Of a DNA stretch of 32,266 bases, positions 3,459 to 31,976 are shown in pieces. The DNA is from a virus. The stretch covers positions 1 to 32,266 of the IMG/VR virus record IMGVR_UViG_3300044712_001904, one strand, 5' to 3'. The notes under the pieces were generated by a model that was not told the origin of the DNA, made no database searches, and saw only the letters and a program-made list of their open reading frames with translations. Both the position numbers and the translations under genes were made by a program. How positions within the stretch are numbered: the first letter of the stretch is position 1; the number at the start of each line of letters is the position of its first letter.

Positions 3459-4337
3459 CTATGGCACAGAGAACTGGCACACCGTGTGCGCCGGCTTGAT
3501 GTCGTCGAATATTTCGGCCAGCACGAGGCGCGTGAACGACAGCAGCCGATCCCCAGCAGCCGATTCCCCCGCCCGGAATTGCCGGATTGGCGAGTCGTTT
3601 GTCACACCGTCGACCTGCCAGACGTTGGGCTCAGGCTCCGTGATCGTGATCGTCCAGCCGAGACGGGCCGCGTACTCTATGTAATAGGCCCGGGATAGCC
3701 CGGCTCGCTCGTTGAGCTTGGCCAGGATGGCCGTGCGCCGGTCCGTGAGCGACGCGCCGGCGTCCGGCGCGAGGGAAAGAAGCCGCTCCCACTCTCCCAG
3801 GAGGAAAGTCGCCGAGTCGCCGAACATGTCACGTAAAAGCCCCGTTGCCGCGTCGTGCGCCGCGTCGAGCGCCTTGCCTTCGACGCCCGTATCGCCCAGG
3901 TGTGCCCCTCCGAACTGAGAAAGGGGGAAAAGCAGGCGTAGCACGGTCTCGTGAGCACCCTGCGCCGGTTGGGCGGCCGCGACGGGCGTTGCCGATGCCT
4001 CGGGAGATGGCGCCGACTCGCCGCCGGGCCCCACGGCTGTGACGACGTAGTAGTAGGTCGCCCCGTTGAATAGCCCGCCATGGACGTAGTCGTGAAGGAA
4101 TCCCAGCCCTGCGGTTTCCGCCAGCAGGGTGCCGACCTCCGGGGTGACCCCGGTCTCCTGTCCCACGTAGAGGCGATAGGTGACGGCGTCCTGGACCGGG
4201 GACCAGTGGACTGTGACTACCCCATCCCCCGCGTCTGCCGCGATCGCCGCCGGCGGAGCAGGGGGCAGCACTACGTCCGCGAGTGCGCCCCCCAGCCCGT
4301 CGAGCAGTATCTGTCGGCCAAGCCCCTCGAGCAGCAT
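3459..4337 (-). CDS. Mu gp48/YmfQ-type baseplate protein with N-terminal FN3 domain
   Basis: 292 residues in two parts. Residues ~22-118 look like a fibronectin type III domain (PPAPPAAIAADAGDGVVTVH ... VTYRLYVGQE ... TYYYVVTAVGPGGES). Residues ~130-292 match the Mu gp48/YmfQ (DUF2313) pattern: LLRDMFGDSATFLLGEWERL, LTDRRTAILAKL, YYIEYAARLGWTITI. Gp48 proteins sit at the edge of the Mu-type baseplate near the fibres. The usual family member lacks the FN3 module, which may bind carbohydrate on the host. The gene starts directly after the stop of its upstream neighbour (TAGATG). Confidence 0.85.
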   Translation of the reverse strand: MLLEGLGRQILLDGLGGALADVVLPPAPPAAIAADAGDGVVTVHWSPVQDAVTYRLYVGQETGVTPEVGTLLAETAGLGFLHDYVHGGLFNGATYYYVVTAVGPGGESAPSPEASATPVAAAQPAQGAHETVLRLLFPLSQFGGAHLGDTGVEGKALDAAHDAATGLLRDMFGDSATFLLGEWERLLSLAPDAGASLTDRRTAILAKLNERAGLSRAYYIEYAARLGWTITITEPEPNVWQVDGVTNDSPIRQFRAGESAAGDRLLSFTRLVLAEIFDDIKPAHTVCQFSVP

Positions 4338-13081: not shown

Positions 13082-13434
13082 CCCTGCCGTCCTTCCGCCG
13101 AAAGCTCGATGGTCTTGGTGACCTCGTTCTCGCCGTCATACTTCTCGGCGCCGACCTTGGTGACGTAGACCCCGGTGAAGATGATCGGAGCGGCGCCGCC
13201 CTCCGGGATGATCGTGAGCGTGCCGTTCCGAACGTTCAGGAAGTCGATCGCGCCCACGGTCGGCACGACGTATTCGACGTCGACGCCGTGGCGCAGCGTC
13301 TGCTCGATGTGGCCGGTCTTGTGCATGAGCTTGACCACCTTGAACTTCTCGAGTTCCTTGATGGTGGCCGACTTGAAGTCCGTGATGGCCCGGCCGTCGA
13401 TGGCCAGTTCGATGCGTGCGAGGTACGTTCCCAT
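13078..13434 (-). CDS. Tail tube protein (Mu gpM type)
   Basis: 118 residues, beta-rich, with the Mu/P2-type tube pattern: ARIELAIDGRAITDFKSATI, LMHKTGHIEQTLRHGVDVEY and LTIIPEGGAAPIIFTGVYVT. It polymerises into the inner tube around the tape measure. It lies directly between sheath and chaperone genes, as in Mu and P2 relatives. Confidence 0.93.
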   Translation of the reverse strand: MGTYLARIELAIDGRAITDFKSATIKELEKFKVVKLMHKTGHIEQTLRHGVDVEYVVPTVGAIDFLNVRNGTLTIIPEGGAAPIIFTGVYVTKVGAEKYDGENEVTKTIELSAEGRQG

Positions 13435-13461
13435 GTCGATTCGCTCCTCTTCGGTTCGTGG

Positions 13462-14898
13462 TTACAGCAGCAGGTCGAGGCGGCCGGCCGAGATGTGCAT
13501 GCCGTTGACCACGTCGGTCGGGATCTTCCAGTTGATCCGGTTCGGATCCTGCGAATCGCGCTCGACGATCAGCCCGTCGATGTGGTCCATGACGGCCTCG
13601 ACGATTTCCAGCTCCTCGAGCTTCAGGAGCACGTCCAGCAGCTCGGTCCGGACCAGCGTGGGCGTTTTCGCGAACAGCTTCTCCCGGGGGAACCGGAGCG
13701 ACAGCCGTTCCCGGCACGCCTTCCGGACGTAGTCGAGCGTCCGGATGGTGGTCAGGTCGAGCAGGGCGATATCGGGAACGCCGGCGGCATTCTCGACGTA
13801 GGTCGAGATCACGCGGACGAACTGGACGCGCTCGCCGGGGCCGACTTCCAGCGGCGTGACGCCGTTGTAGAGGCAGGATTCCTGCTCCGTGCGGGTGAGC
13901 CGGTCGGCGATCGCCGGGACCGCGATCCCGCGGATTTCGAGCGTGTTGAGCGGCTTGGCGGGGTCCTCTTCGCCGGCGATGACGGCCGCGCAACCGGCGG
14001 CCAGTTCGCACGGAAGGCTCTGCGCCTTGCTGGCCGCGGTGTACCGCAGGAAGGGCAGGGTGATGCGCGGGTAGTTGAGCGTGCCGCCGAGCGTGGTGGC
14101 CGATGCGAGCGCGGCGGTGAACGCCATGACGGCGATTCCGGAACGCTGCTCGATCGCGCCGGAGACGGTTTCCAGGTGCGCCTTCAGGGCGGCGTAGCTG
14201 GTCGCGTCGTTGTAGGGGCTCACGATGACGTGGAACTGCGAGGGGGCGATCGGCGCCAGCGCGGAGGCGAGCACGGGGTCCACCGCGCCCGAAGCCATCG
14301 CCACGACGACGGCGGTGACGCCGGCGGCCGCGACCGAGGCCGAGAGGGCGATCGCGTTGCCCAGCGTGCCCTTGTTGCGGGCGGTGAAGGTCACCACGCC
14401 CGCGTTGTTCGAGCCGGTGGCCGGGAGGTCGGGATACTTGTCCAGCTCCGCGACCAGCGCGGCGCCGATCTCGGTGGCGGTGGCGGCCGACGCGATCCCG
14501 ATCTCGATGCGCTGCGCGCCGACGTAGACGACGAGCGATCCGGATCCGGTCGCGGGGCCCGCGATCGTCACCGTGCCCGAGGCCGCGACGCCCGTGTCGG
14601 AATCGTCCAGGGCGCAGACCGTCAGGTCGAGGTACGGGTTTGCCTTGATGGCGGCCTTCGCCATCAGGTGCGCCATGGAGCCGCGCCCGAAATAGGTTGC
14701 GGCTTCGGCGTCGGAGAACACCGGCGTCGGGACCAGCTCGGCGACCGTGCCGGCGGCGAGGCGCTGACCGATGAGCAGCACGCGCTGCAGGTTGCTCGGC
14801 AACGTGCCGGCGGCGAGCTTGGTATTGAACTCCGCGTAGACCCCCGGCTTGCGGATCGACGAGGGGATCGATTCGAAACTGATGTTGGGGCTGCCCAT
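13462..14898 (-). CDS. Contractile tail sheath protein (Mu gpL type)
   Basis: 478 residues. The N-terminus FESIPSSIRKPGVYAEFNT and RVLLIGQRLAAGT are the Mu-type sheath start; the centre carries an inserted beta domain (GTVTIAGPATGSGSLVVYVG). The C-terminal part RTLDYVRKACRERLSLRFPR and the segment near DPNRINWKIPTDVVNG hold the strands that link neighbouring sheath subunits. This fixes the virion as a myovirus. The start immediately follows the preceding stop (TAGATG). Confidence 0.95.
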   Translation of the reverse strand: MGSPNISFESIPSSIRKPGVYAEFNTKLAAGTLPSNLQRVLLIGQRLAAGTVAELVPTPVFSDAEAATYFGRGSMAHLMAKAAIKANPYLDLTVCALDDSDTGVAASGTVTIAGPATGSGSLVVYVGAQRIEIGIASAATATEIGAALVAELDKYPDLPATGSNNAGVVTFTARNKGTLGNAIALSASVAAAGVTAVVVAMASGAVDPVLASALAPIAPSQFHVIVSPYNDATSYAALKAHLETVSGAIEQRSGIAVMAFTAALASATTLGGTLNYPRITLPFLRYTAASKAQSLPCELAAGCAAVIAGEEDPAKPLNTLEIRGIAVPAIADRLTRTEQESCLYNGVTPLEVGPGERVQFVRVISTYVENAAGVPDIALLDLTTIRTLDYVRKACRERLSLRFPREKLFAKTPTLVRTELLDVLLKLEELEIVEAVMDHIDGLIVERDSQDPNRINWKIPTDVVNGMHISAGRLDLLL

Positions 14899-15072
14899 CT
14901 ACTTCGTCCCTCCTTTTCTCGGGCTTTCGGACACGACGGAAAGCGAGCCGTCGGCGATCAGCCGCAGGTAGTACCCGGTTCCGGGAACCTCGACCGGGGT
15001 TTCGTCGGTGATGAAATCGCGCGGCTTGCCCTCCATCGGGCATTTCCGGCCGGGCGGAGCGATGACTTTCAT
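14899..15072 (-). CDS. Small Mu gp38-like protein (DUF2635)
   Basis: 57 residues, with GGAGG upstream of ATG at 15072 and a stop touching the sheath start. It begins MKVIAPPGRKCPMEGKPRDF and continues VEVPGTGYYLRLIADGSL, the DUF2635 pattern found just before the sheath gene in Mu-like phages. Probable role is tail completion; no biochemistry can be inferred from the sequence. Its KCP motif and Pro-rich start are typical. Confidence 0.85.
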   Translation of the reverse strand: MKVIAPPGRKCPMEGKPRDFITDETPVEVPGTGYYLRLIADGSLSVVSESPRKGGTK

Positions 15073-29211: not shown

Positions 29212-29664
29212 TCATTCGGCCTCCGCTGGGGGCAGGGCGGCGGCCAGCGTCGAGAGCGCCGTCTGCGCGTGGTGGATTTCTTCCCGGATCCGCTTGGCTT
29301 CCCGGCGGCTGATCGCGCCGTCGATGATCGCGGAGAGGACCTCTTCGGTCACGTGGCCGACCTCGCGCATCGTGATCGCCAGATGGCCGGTCAGCGTCTC
29401 GCGAACGGTGGGCGCGTCGGGATCCGCGATCGGCACGGCGGTCATCCCGCAGGGCTTGAGGATCAGGTCGAGCAGGCGGGTATCGCGCATCGAGAGGAAC
29501 AGCCGGATCAGGAAGGACACGGTCAGCGCGCGCCGGCCTTCCGCGAAATCGTAGATCGTGGACGCCGCGCAGCCGATCTTCTCGGCGACCACGTCCACGC
29601 GGAAGCTCTTCTCGATCAGGAACACGTAGTAGAGCAGGCCTTGGGAGGTGTCCTGGACTCTCAT
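29212..29664 (-). CDS. Phage regulatory protein, CII-like (CP76 family)
   Basis: 150 residues with GGAGGG 6 bases before ATG. N-terminal helix-turn-helix: LIEKSFRVDVVAEKIGCAAS, TIYDFAEGRRALTVSFLIRL. The later part (RETLTGHLAITMREVGHVTE ... SRREAKRIREEIHHAQTALS) is helical and probably forms the oligomer. This is the layout of CP76-type CII proteins, which help choose lysogeny. It follows the Cro-like gene on the leftward transcript, as in lambdoid order. Confidence 0.7.
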   Translation of the reverse strand: MRVQDTSQGLLYYVFLIEKSFRVDVVAEKIGCAASTIYDFAEGRRALTVSFLIRLFLSMRDTRLLDLILKPCGMTAVPIADPDAPTVRETLTGHLAITMREVGHVTEEVLSAIIDGAISRREAKRIREEIHHAQTALSTLAAALPPAEAE

Positions 29665-29748: not shown

Positions 29749-29994
29749 CTACGCGGCCGGCTGCTTGCGGAACTTGGGGTTCTTGAGTTCATACCCGAAA
29801 AGAAGCTCTTCAAGCGAAACCTTGCCGCCGGAAATCGTTACGATTTCACGACATATCTCCGGCGAAAAGCGGCGGCGGCCAGACTTTGCTTTTCTTACCA
29901 TGCTCGCCTTGACCTGATGCCCCCGGCTGCTCAGCACAGTCGCGAGGTCCTCGGGGCTCATAGGGGCGTCAATCATCCACTCGTGCAAAAGCAT
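29749..29994 (-). CDS. Cro-like regulator
   Basis: 81 residues from ATG at 29994, with GGAGG 8 bases upstream; an upstream in-frame start would lie inside the promoter. Residues ~12-65 (MSPEDLATVLSSRGHQVKAS, MVRKAKSGRRRFSPEICREI, VTISGGKVSLEELL) form a helix-turn-helix with the YdaS/Cro-type GGxxSLEELL end. First gene on the leftward early transcript, opposite the repressor, the classic Cro position. Confidence 0.75.
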   Translation of the reverse strand: MLLHEWMIDAPMSPEDLATVLSSRGHQVKASMVRKAKSGRRRFSPEICREIVTISGGKVSLEELLFGYELKNPKFRKQPAA

Positions 29995-30014
29995 GCGAAT
30001 CACCTCCAACCCGA

Positions 30015-30043
30015 ACAATAGGACGCATTGTCCTATTTGTCAA
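30015..30043 (-). promoter_or_regulatory. Leftward early promoter
   Basis: Minus strand TTGACA (30043-30038), 17 bases, TATTGT (30020-30015). The -35 box is consensus. Operator O1 exactly fills the spacer, so bound repressor would occlude RNA polymerase. It drives the Cro-like gene and the leftward early operon. The layout is mirrored at 31619-31647. Confidence 0.9.
30017..30037. promoter_or_regulatory. Repressor operator O1
   Basis: AATAGGAC-GCATT-GTCCTATT, a perfect 8-bp inverted repeat with 5-bp centre, inside the spacer of the leftward promoter. It is the best match to the consensus shared by all five operators. Confidence 0.9.
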
Positions 30044-30048
30044 GATTG

Positions 30049-30069
30049 GATCGGACCCATTGTCGTATT
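30049..30069. promoter_or_regulatory. Repressor operator O2
   Basis: GATCGGAC-CCATT-GTCGTATT. It keeps GGAC-N5-GTC and the ATT of the right arm. Centre lies 32 bp (three helical turns) from O1, upstream of the leftward -35 box, so the two dimers would face the same side. Confidence 0.8.
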
Positions 30070-30077
30070 GCCGTTCA

Positions 30078-30098
30078 GGGGGGACAATATGTCTAATG
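30078..30098. promoter_or_regulatory. Repressor operator O3, over the repressor start
   Basis: GGGGGGAC-AATAT-GTCTAATG, the weakest arm match but with the same GGAC-N5-GTC core. It covers the ribosome site and start codon of the repressor, 29 bp from O2, a layout suited to negative autoregulation. Confidence 0.7.
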
Positions 30099-30790
30099 GC
30101 AGGGTGCTGAGAGATTTTCGAAATGCTGTCATGGAGGCCATGGCTCGACAAAAAATGTCGAAGGCCGCACTTGCGCGTGCAACCAAGATCGATTATTCGT
30201 ACCTATCCCGAATGCTTTCCGGCAAAGCCAGGTTCAATGAAACATACATCGAGAGCATAACCAATGTGTTGGGGATCGCTAGGGCATCCTTGCCACCTCT
30301 TTCCCCCTCCCTGATTGTCCGCGCAAAAAGTTTTAAAGGGGCCGACCTCCCGGATCGGCGGGAAGAACTGCTAGAAGTGCCAGTGATGGGAGATCCCGCG
30401 GCGGCCGGGGCGGGGCGGATCGTCTCCGATGACGACGTGGCGGGCGTGGCGTGGATTCCGCGCGACCAGCTGGCGGGCCGGGACCGGCATACTCTCCGGG
30501 CGATCAGGATCAGCGGGCACTCCATGGAGCCGATGATCCACGACGGCGCCCTGGTCGTGATCGACTGCGACGACCGTGAGAAGATCGATCCGAACGCGGT
30601 CTATGCCGTCCGCGACGATGGTGAAGGCGTGACGTTAAAACATATCGTTTTTAGGGAAAGGGAACACAAACTGATTCTCGTCGCCAACAATAGGAATTTG
30701 CTGCTCTACCCGCCGCGCGAAGTCGACCTGAAACGCGACGCCTCCCCAGTGATCGGGCGCGCGATTTGGGTCGGACAGGGAATCGCATAG
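30089..30790 (+). CDS. CI-like repressor with S24 autoprotease domain
   Basis: 233 residues from ATG at 30089 (AGGGGGG upstream, spaced 5). Residues ~7-62 are an XRE-type helix-turn-helix (QKMSKAALARATKIDYSYLS, RMLSGKARF). Residues ~95-230 are a LexA/S24 peptidase: GHSMEPMIHDGALVVID with Ser145 and GVTLKHIVF with Lys184. AAAGAG at 104-109 offers the Ala-Gly self-cleavage bond. This predicts maintenance of lysogeny and RecA-stimulated induction on DNA damage. No strong promoter lies immediately upstream, as is common for maintenance promoters that need activation. Confidence 0.93.
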   Translation: MSNGRVLRDFRNAVMEAMARQKMSKAALARATKIDYSYLSRMLSGKARFNETYIESITNVLGIARASLPPLSPSLIVRAKSFKGADLPDRREELLEVPVMGDPAAAGAGRIVSDDDVAGVAWIPRDQLAGRDRHTLRAIRISGHSMEPMIHDGALVVIDCDDREKIDPNAVYAVRDDGEGVTLKHIVFREREHKLILVANNRNLLLYPPREVDLKRDASPVIGRAIWVGQGIA

Positions 30791-30809
30791 GGCCACCGGA
30801 GGTTTATAA

Positions 30810-31496
30810 ATGCCAATATTTAAATGCCCTGAATGCGGTTCCAGCGAAAACGACGGGGATGGGAAATGTATCAAATGCGGCGTTCCAATCATAGATGTGT
30901 CTTCTGTGGCGCCTCCAATTGTTTCCGCACCTACCGCCACCCGAGCACATTGGATTGTAATCGTAATGGTATGTTTAATGATGGCTGTAGTTATGTGGTA
31001 TGTCGAAAGCTGTAATAGCAACAAGACTCCGAATCGCACTGATTTAGAACTATTCAAAGAATACTATTCAAAAATAATTGGCAAAACGGCATTAGCTGAT
31101 AAAGTTTATAAGCCATTTGGCCTTTCACTGGATTCAGGTGACAGTTTGTCCTCTATGTCAATAGCAAGACGCATTGAGCGTGATTATCGTAAATGTTGGG
31201 TTGATATAGACCGGGAGTTTTCTCCTAAACTTGAGAATGCTGAAGCTTCTGAGTTGTTAAAGGATGGGCACGAAAAACTATCTGGCGCCTATTATTGCAA
31301 GCTCAATGTGATAGAGGGGTTTGTTAAATTGTCTAAATCTCCATCAATATCTATAGTCGGAGATGTTAAAGAGTCCGCTGAAAGGGTAACCCCCTTGATG
31401 GTTTCCGGCCTTGCAAAACTCTTCGCAGCAGGAGAAAAGTTAGGCATGGCTCCGGAAGATATTGCGAACATTGGGAAAGAGGCGCCATCAAAATAG
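30810..31496 (+). CDS. AT-rich zinc-ribbon membrane protein, lysogen accessory gene
   Basis: 228 residues; GGAGG 8 bases before ATG, 19 bases after the repressor stop. Residues 6-23 form a zinc ribbon (FKCPECGSS, GKCIKCG; Cys6, 9, 20, 23). A membrane helix spans ~46-67 (WIVIVMVCLMMAVVMWYVES). The remaining 160 residues are a soluble domain (LELFKEYYSKIIGK, DSGDSLSSMSIARRIERDYR, SGLAKLFAAGEKLGMAPED). The gene is clearly A+T-rich compared with all its neighbours, marking recent foreign origin. Co-direction with the repressor and a terminator right behind mean it is likely expressed in the lysogen. No family recognised. Confidence 0.85.
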   Translation: MPIFKCPECGSSENDGDGKCIKCGVPIIDVSSVAPPIVSAPTATRAHWIVIVMVCLMMAVVMWYVESCNSNKTPNRTDLELFKEYYSKIIGKTALADKVYKPFGLSLDSGDSLSSMSIARRIERDYRKCWVDIDREFSPKLENAEASELLKDGHEKLSGAYYCKLNVIEGFVKLSKSPSISIVGDVKESAERVTPLMVSGLAKLFAAGEKLGMAPEDIANIGKEAPSK

Positions 31497-31541
31497 AATA
31501 AAGCCTATCACCAAAGAGAAAACCCAACCCCGCCCCTGCTG

Positions 31542-31568
31542 ACGCCCCTCTCCCCGAGGGGCGTTTTC
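31542..31568 (+). terminator. Rho-independent terminator of the repressor operon
   Basis: ACGCCCCTC-TCCCC-GAGGGGCGT followed by TTTCG. It ends the repressor/accessory transcript and insulates the rightward promoter 51 bases downstream. Confidence 0.88.
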
Positions 31569-31592
31569 GTTAGGGGTTTCCGTATGAGCACA

Positions 31593-31613
31593 AAAAGGAC
31601 ATATAGTCCTTTC
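31593..31613. promoter_or_regulatory. Repressor operator O4
   Basis: AAAAGGAC-ATATA-GTCCTTTC, perfect 7-bp arms around the same 5-bp centre. It lies upstream of the rightward promoter -35 box, 32 bp from O5, the same distance as O1-O2. Confidence 0.87.
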
Positions 31614-31618
31614 TGTGC

Positions 31619-31647
31619 TTGACAAATAGGACACCCTGTCCTAGTAT
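31619..31647 (+). promoter_or_regulatory. Rightward early promoter
   Basis: TTGACA (31619-31624), 17 bases, TAGTAT (31642-31647). The -35 box is consensus and O5 fills the spacer. It is the mirror image of the promoter at 30015-30043, with near-identical bases from the -35 box through the first operator arm (TTGACAAATAGGACA). Drives the rightward genes from 31791. Confidence 0.9.
31625..31645. promoter_or_regulatory. Repressor operator O5
   Basis: AATAGGAC-ACCCT-GTCCTAGT; the left arm is identical to O1. It occupies the spacer of the rightward promoter and would block it when bound. Confidence 0.88.
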
Positions 31648-31654
31648 CCCCAAT

Positions 31655-31790
31655 TAGCCGCACCACCTCGGCGACCAACAGCAGCGATGACCTGCTCGGC
31701 TCGGGAGGAAAGGGCGCAAAGTCCCGCCCCTGGCGGTTCGCCGCAGGAAGGCGAGCGGGACACAAAAACCGGTTTCAGAAAGGACAGCGC
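31655..31790 (+). other. Structured leader of the rightward early transcript
   Basis: About 136 bases run from the predicted start to the first gene. Hairpins are AGCAG/CTGCT (31680-31696) and a larger one with outer stem GTCCCGC/GCGGGAC (31721-31727, 31755-31761) enclosing GCGG-TTCG-CCGC. AAAGGGCGCAAAG lies at 31709-31721. It ends with AAAGGA before ATG. An attenuator, antitermination site or riboswitch is possible; no class can be assigned. Confidence 0.4.
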
Positions 31791-31976
31791 ATGTCGGAAA
31801 AGATCAGCCTCGGCGAGAAGGTCAAGGACGGCATCACCGGCTTCACGGGCATCGTCACGTGCCGCACGGAATACCTGCACGACAACCCGAGCCTGGGCAT
31901 CCAGCCGCTCGAGCTGAAGGACGGCAAGCCCGCCGAAACCGTGTGGCTGGCCGAAACGCGGGTCAGCCGGATCTAG
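31791..31976 (+). CDS. Small conserved-type phage protein
   Basis: 61 residues, AAAGGA ribosome site. The pattern VKDGITGFTGIVTCRTEYLH, then IQPLELKDGKPAETVWLAET resembles a recurring small phage protein of the 'D-x-ITGF-x-G' kind that ends in a W-(F/L)-xE-x-R motif. Its function is unknown. It is the first gene behind the rightward early promoter, so it should be made immediately on induction. Confidence 0.75.
   Translation: MSEKISLGEKVKDGITGFTGIVTCRTEYLHDNPSLGIQPLELKDGKPAETVWLAETRVSRI

Follow-up and report, generated by a model that had tools for sequence, protein, structure and literature searches.

A probable lambda-type immunity region bounded by operator pairs in an uncultivated temperate tailed phage

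Published studies describe a two-sided operator layout as common among lambdoid phages, and demonstrate looping between the two sides in three such phages (PMC8053113, PMC3708714). In HK022 and phiKO2, the repressor gene is flanked by the operators OL and OR, about 700 bp apart in the former and 630 bp in the latter, and looping between them takes place in vivo. These two phages were also reported to depart from lambda in the arrangement of their operators (PMC8053113), and we therefore treat the possession of three operators per side as a feature of lambda itself rather than of this kind of control region. In CP-933P from E. coli O157:H7, a YdaS-type protein serves as the Cro equivalent, YdaT takes the role of CII, and a toxin-antitoxin pair lies in the place of rexAB (PMC9986795), so that passenger genes inside such regions are already known. 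Measurement on the annotated lambda record gives a centre-to-centre distance of 24 bp for OL1-OL2 and likewise for OR1-OR2, and a distance of 18 bp between the first base of the -35 element and OL1 on one side or OR1 on the other.

The DNA analysed here (the window) is a virus record of 32,266 bases, with a control region at its right end. Its remaining genes include a lambda-type terminase and portal, an S49 head protease, a Mu-like head protein, a tape-measure protein, Mu/P2-like baseplate proteins and an integrase. Because terminase, portal, head, tape-measure and baseplate genes are present together with an integrase, the source is a temperate, tailed phage, with lambda-type portal and terminase genes, Mu/P2-like tail genes and a tail that is probably contractile. 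Within the structural cluster, a reading frame of 635 residues (13136-15043, minus strand) displays no Pfam or PHROG match.

The control region is very probably an immunity region of the lambda type, in which a repressor acts through operator pairs at both ends. A preliminary description had recognised it as repressor-controlled, and the gene content bears this out: an S24/CI repressor is accompanied by genes of the Cro position and of the CII type, and operators lie over two outward-facing promoters. The repressor (233 residues; 30089..30790, plus strand) is of the CI/LexA type, with an HTH at its N terminus followed by an S24 peptidase domain at its C terminus (Pfam Peptidase_S24, E=4.7e-12; HTH_31, E=7.8e-7; PHROG 4 repressor, E=6.4e-32), and it is 20% identical to lambda CI. 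Its Ser145 and Lys184 align with the catalytic region of lambda CI and, from what is established for that protein, we take them to be the catalytic dyad; the same alignment makes Ala106-Gly107 a candidate cleavage site. A sequence search of the PDB with the repressor returned no match.

The first gene on the left lytic transcript, as Cro would be, encodes a protein of 81 residues (29749..29994, minus strand), the start of which was inferred from a GGAGGTG upstream of its ATG. This protein appears all-helical, HTH-like and distantly YdaS-like: its family matches are weak (PHROG 35 repressor, E=1.6e-4; YdaS_toxin, E=0.0043, below the Pfam cut-off), and a model of modest confidence contains four helices, for which the best PDB match was YdaS, at a level that was not significant. 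It is followed, in second place within the left lytic operon, by a CII-type activator of the CP76 family (150 residues; 29212..29664, minus strand), which matches Pfam Phage_CP76 (E=8.6e-15) and the CII-like activators of PHROG 101 (E=7.1e-13); no match to the Pfam family of lambda CII was reported for it, and no relatives in viral contigs were confirmed. Past the right promoter, the first clear gene (61 residues; 31791..31976, plus strand) belongs to PHROG 16275 (E=1.4e-10), and its relatives, 33-41% identical, occur mostly in alphaproteobacterial phages. The record ends 290 bp beyond that gene, and the right operon is visible only to that point. The intervening leader (31653-31793) was considered as a structured RNA and set aside, having no Rfam match and a folding energy like that of shuffled sequences (z -0.12).

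The two best consensus promoters of the region face outward on either side of the repressor: a left promoter equivalent to PR (TTGACA-17-TATTGT; 30015..30043, minus strand) and a right promoter equivalent to PL (TTGACA-17-TAGTAT; 31619..31647, plus strand), each with 10 of 12 consensus matches. Between them, in agreement with the preliminary description, lie the repressor and an AT-rich gene (30810-31496) with a GC content of 0.43, as compared to 0.635 for the window. Also as described there, the sequence places one operator in each of the two 17-bp spacers, 1.6 kb apart. These operators, O1 (30017..30037) and O5 (31625..31645), each span the spacer and extend four bases into the -10 element, and are separated by 1608 bp. 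Among outward promoter pairs with matching spacers, 13 positions match in the window, as compared to 11 or fewer in 200 simulated sequences.

The five proposed 21-bp sites, beginning at 30017, 30049, 30078, 31593 and 31625, were recovered at exactly those coordinates, with successive centre-to-centre distances of 32, 29, 1515 and 32 bp; O2 (30049..30069) and O4 (31593..31613) thus lie, as claimed, 32 bp from O1 and O5 on the -35 side at both ends. When the whole window was scored with a symmetric 21-bp weight matrix in a leave-one-out scheme, no place outside the set outscored O1, O2, O4 or O5, and O1 was the strongest (rank 1 by the matrix and by leave-one-out), whereas the site at 30078 ranked only 23rd. 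The claim of five matched operators accordingly stands for four strong sites, and is not supported by sequence for the fifth. Similarly, the arms had been called nearly identical, and their self-complementarity (8/10, 5/10, 4/10, 7/10 and 8/10 from O1 to O5) upholds that wording for O1, O4 and O5, half upholds it for O2, and does not for O3. The bare motif GGAC-N5-GTC is itself fairly common, with 13 occurrences in the window where 7.8 would be expected, and 6 of 100 shuffles reach that count of 13, but the four strong sites are unmatched elsewhere, and the longer form AGGAC-N5-GTCCT occurs in the window only at 30020, 31596 and 31628. There are consequently two strong sites per side, rather than the three of lambda, with one weak third candidate on the left (O3; 30078..30098), which lies across the repressor start codon. 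Its assignment as a fifth operator is a guess from position rather than sequence, and is unproven.

On both sides, a distance of 16 bp separates the operator centres from the first -35 base. Two 44-bp modules of operator, -35 element and operator, with identical geometry, bound the 1.6-kb segment. The corresponding string, GAC-N5-GTC-N10-TTGACA-N4-GGAC-N5-GTCC, is found exactly twice in the window, once per strand and facing outward, and in none of 100 shuffles. A promoter scan found no consensus plus-strand promoter upstream of 30089; two weak candidates for transcription of the repressor were read by eye. One (TTGTCA-18-TGTCGT; 30037-30066) fits the start at 30089, before which a GGGGGG stretch may act as a ribosome-binding site, but it would be overlapped by O2. 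The other (TTGCCG-18-TCTAAT; 30068-30097) would carry O3 in its spacer, a situation resembling that of lambda OR3, which covers the repressor promoter, but transcription from it would begin inside the annotated repressor frame and would need a later start codon. Downstream, a likely intrinsic terminator at 31547..31571 on the plus strand (CCTCTCCCCGAGGGG then CGTTTTCGTT) would close the operon of repressor and passenger gene, in a region where the number of terminators is not above that of shuffled sequences.

The mirrored design, with its equal spacing and inner gene, had been regarded as unusual, a judgement that does not survive comparison with known phages, because lambda has the same mirrored geometry and a Fusobacterium phage has mirrored, identical promoters. 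In lambda, as in the window, the spacer of each outward promoter holds one operator and another lies beyond the -35, at the same distance on both sides, and an S24-type repressor is enclosed together with additional genetic material (rexAB in lambda); cro is followed by cII on one lambda transcript, as is the Cro-position gene by the CII-type gene in the window. The two differ in operator spacing (32 bp, or about three turns, in the window versus 24 bp), in the distance from operator centre to -35 (16 versus 18 bp), and in the distance between promoter operators (1.6 versus 2.4 kb, the former also exceeding the distances in HK022 and phiKO2); the window further differs in lacking clear third operators, in its CP76-type CII, which also sets it apart from CP-933P, and in a passenger gene unrelated to those of either.

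A scan for mirrored promoters among phages with homologous repressors, evaluated against 200 simulated sequences, identified Fusobacterium phage vB_FnuS_FNU4, the repressor of which is 24% identical to that of the window. Its outward promoters (TTGACT-TTGTAAAGCAATTGCAT-TATAAT), identical on both sides and 1.7 kb apart, enclose the repressor and three genes, and none of the 200 simulations reached such a pair. The operator sequence of FNU4 is different from that of the window, and its inner genes are unrelated as annotated. The 29-bp promoters lie at 3911-3939 and 5614-5642 of L029, and one inner gene is annotated as Ada-type metal binding. Candidate pairs in AsXd-1 and Klebsiella phage RAH1 were reached by 23 and 17 of the 200 simulations, respectively, and are not counted as support; the same scan found nothing striking in phage OE33PA6. 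The region follows the plan of the lambda switch, of which it is a routine case and not a novel type.

Going beyond the sites, promoters, gene order and protein families, which are directly shown, we infer that a repressor dimer would bind the operator pairs at each end of the 1.6-kb segment, its recognition of the motif being assumed from position. Since O1 occupies the spacer of the leftward (cro-cII) early promoter and O5 that of the rightward one, bound repressor would exclude RNA polymerase from both, and O2 and O4, which are offset from them by some three helical turns and so lie on the same face, may be occupied cooperatively with them. The lysogen would then express the repressor together with the passenger gene behind it, presumably from one transcript, until DNA damage provoked a predicted S24 self-cleavage that would inactivate the repressor and open both operons.

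The sites might instead serve mainly the Cro-position protein or another regulator, with the repressor binding elsewhere: lambda CI and Cro share operators, and a sequence alone cannot name the binder. That reading is nevertheless highly improbable, given that the four strong sites occur in the window only at the two promoters flanking the repressor, as do the CI operators of lambda. For a repressor that does bind them, it is possible, though rather unlikely, that each pair works alone, and that the two ends neither cooperate nor loop over the intervening 1.6 kb. Interaction between the ends is unproven by sequence, a third site was not detected on the right, and lambda strengthens its loop by means of an OL3-OR3 tetramer (PMC3708714); against this stand the near-identical modules at both ends and the looping displayed by all three lambdoid repressors tested (PMC8053113). 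By analogy with lambda, HK022 and phiKO2, looping between the two ends of the repressor-controlled segment is a plausible guess.

The passenger gene (30810..31496, plus strand) encodes 228 residues in the rex position, and its low GC content relative to the window suggests recent acquisition. Four N-terminal cysteines, arranged as two CxxC pairs with sub-threshold Zn-ribbon matches, are suggestive of a zinc ribbon; a transmembrane helix is probable at about residues 45-69; and the C-terminal part is helical in a low-confidence model (pLDDT 50). No relatives were found in phage records or viral contigs, and this orphan gene is a candidate for an exclusion function expressed in the lysogen. A bolder proposal, that two operators per side at three-turn spacing produce a tetramer or loop geometry unlike that of lambda and that the passenger encodes a novel superinfection-exclusion protein, anchored in the membrane and bearing a zinc ribbon, appears quite unlikely. 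Within a known layout, the region has a 32-bp operator spacing and, in the rex position, a passenger gene without known relatives. The region adds a lambda-style switch, readable from sequence alone, from an uncultivated phage with lambda-type portal and terminase and Mu/P2-like tail genes, and provides one more predicted pairing of repressor and operator. It agrees with, and does not alter, the literature in which the two-sided layout is regarded as widespread.

No relatives of the repressor were confirmed in viral or genome contigs, and none appeared among 385 genomes of a single class (that of an Aliiroseovarius genome) at E<=1e-15, an empty answer that proves little. Because no close relative was found, the operators have no confirmation by conservation. 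No other viral contig contained the full operator and promoter module. Exact matches to the promoter-operator string in two of them (L004 and L005) were set aside as chance or parallel cases, since neither contig has a relative of the repressor; L005 contains only one site, and L004 many palindromes of another kind. The latter number about a dozen (TATAGGACA-N-TGACCTATA, at 3089-9163 of L004, a contig unrelated to the window), often form overlapping pairs 17 bp apart, and resemble a repeated regulatory element.
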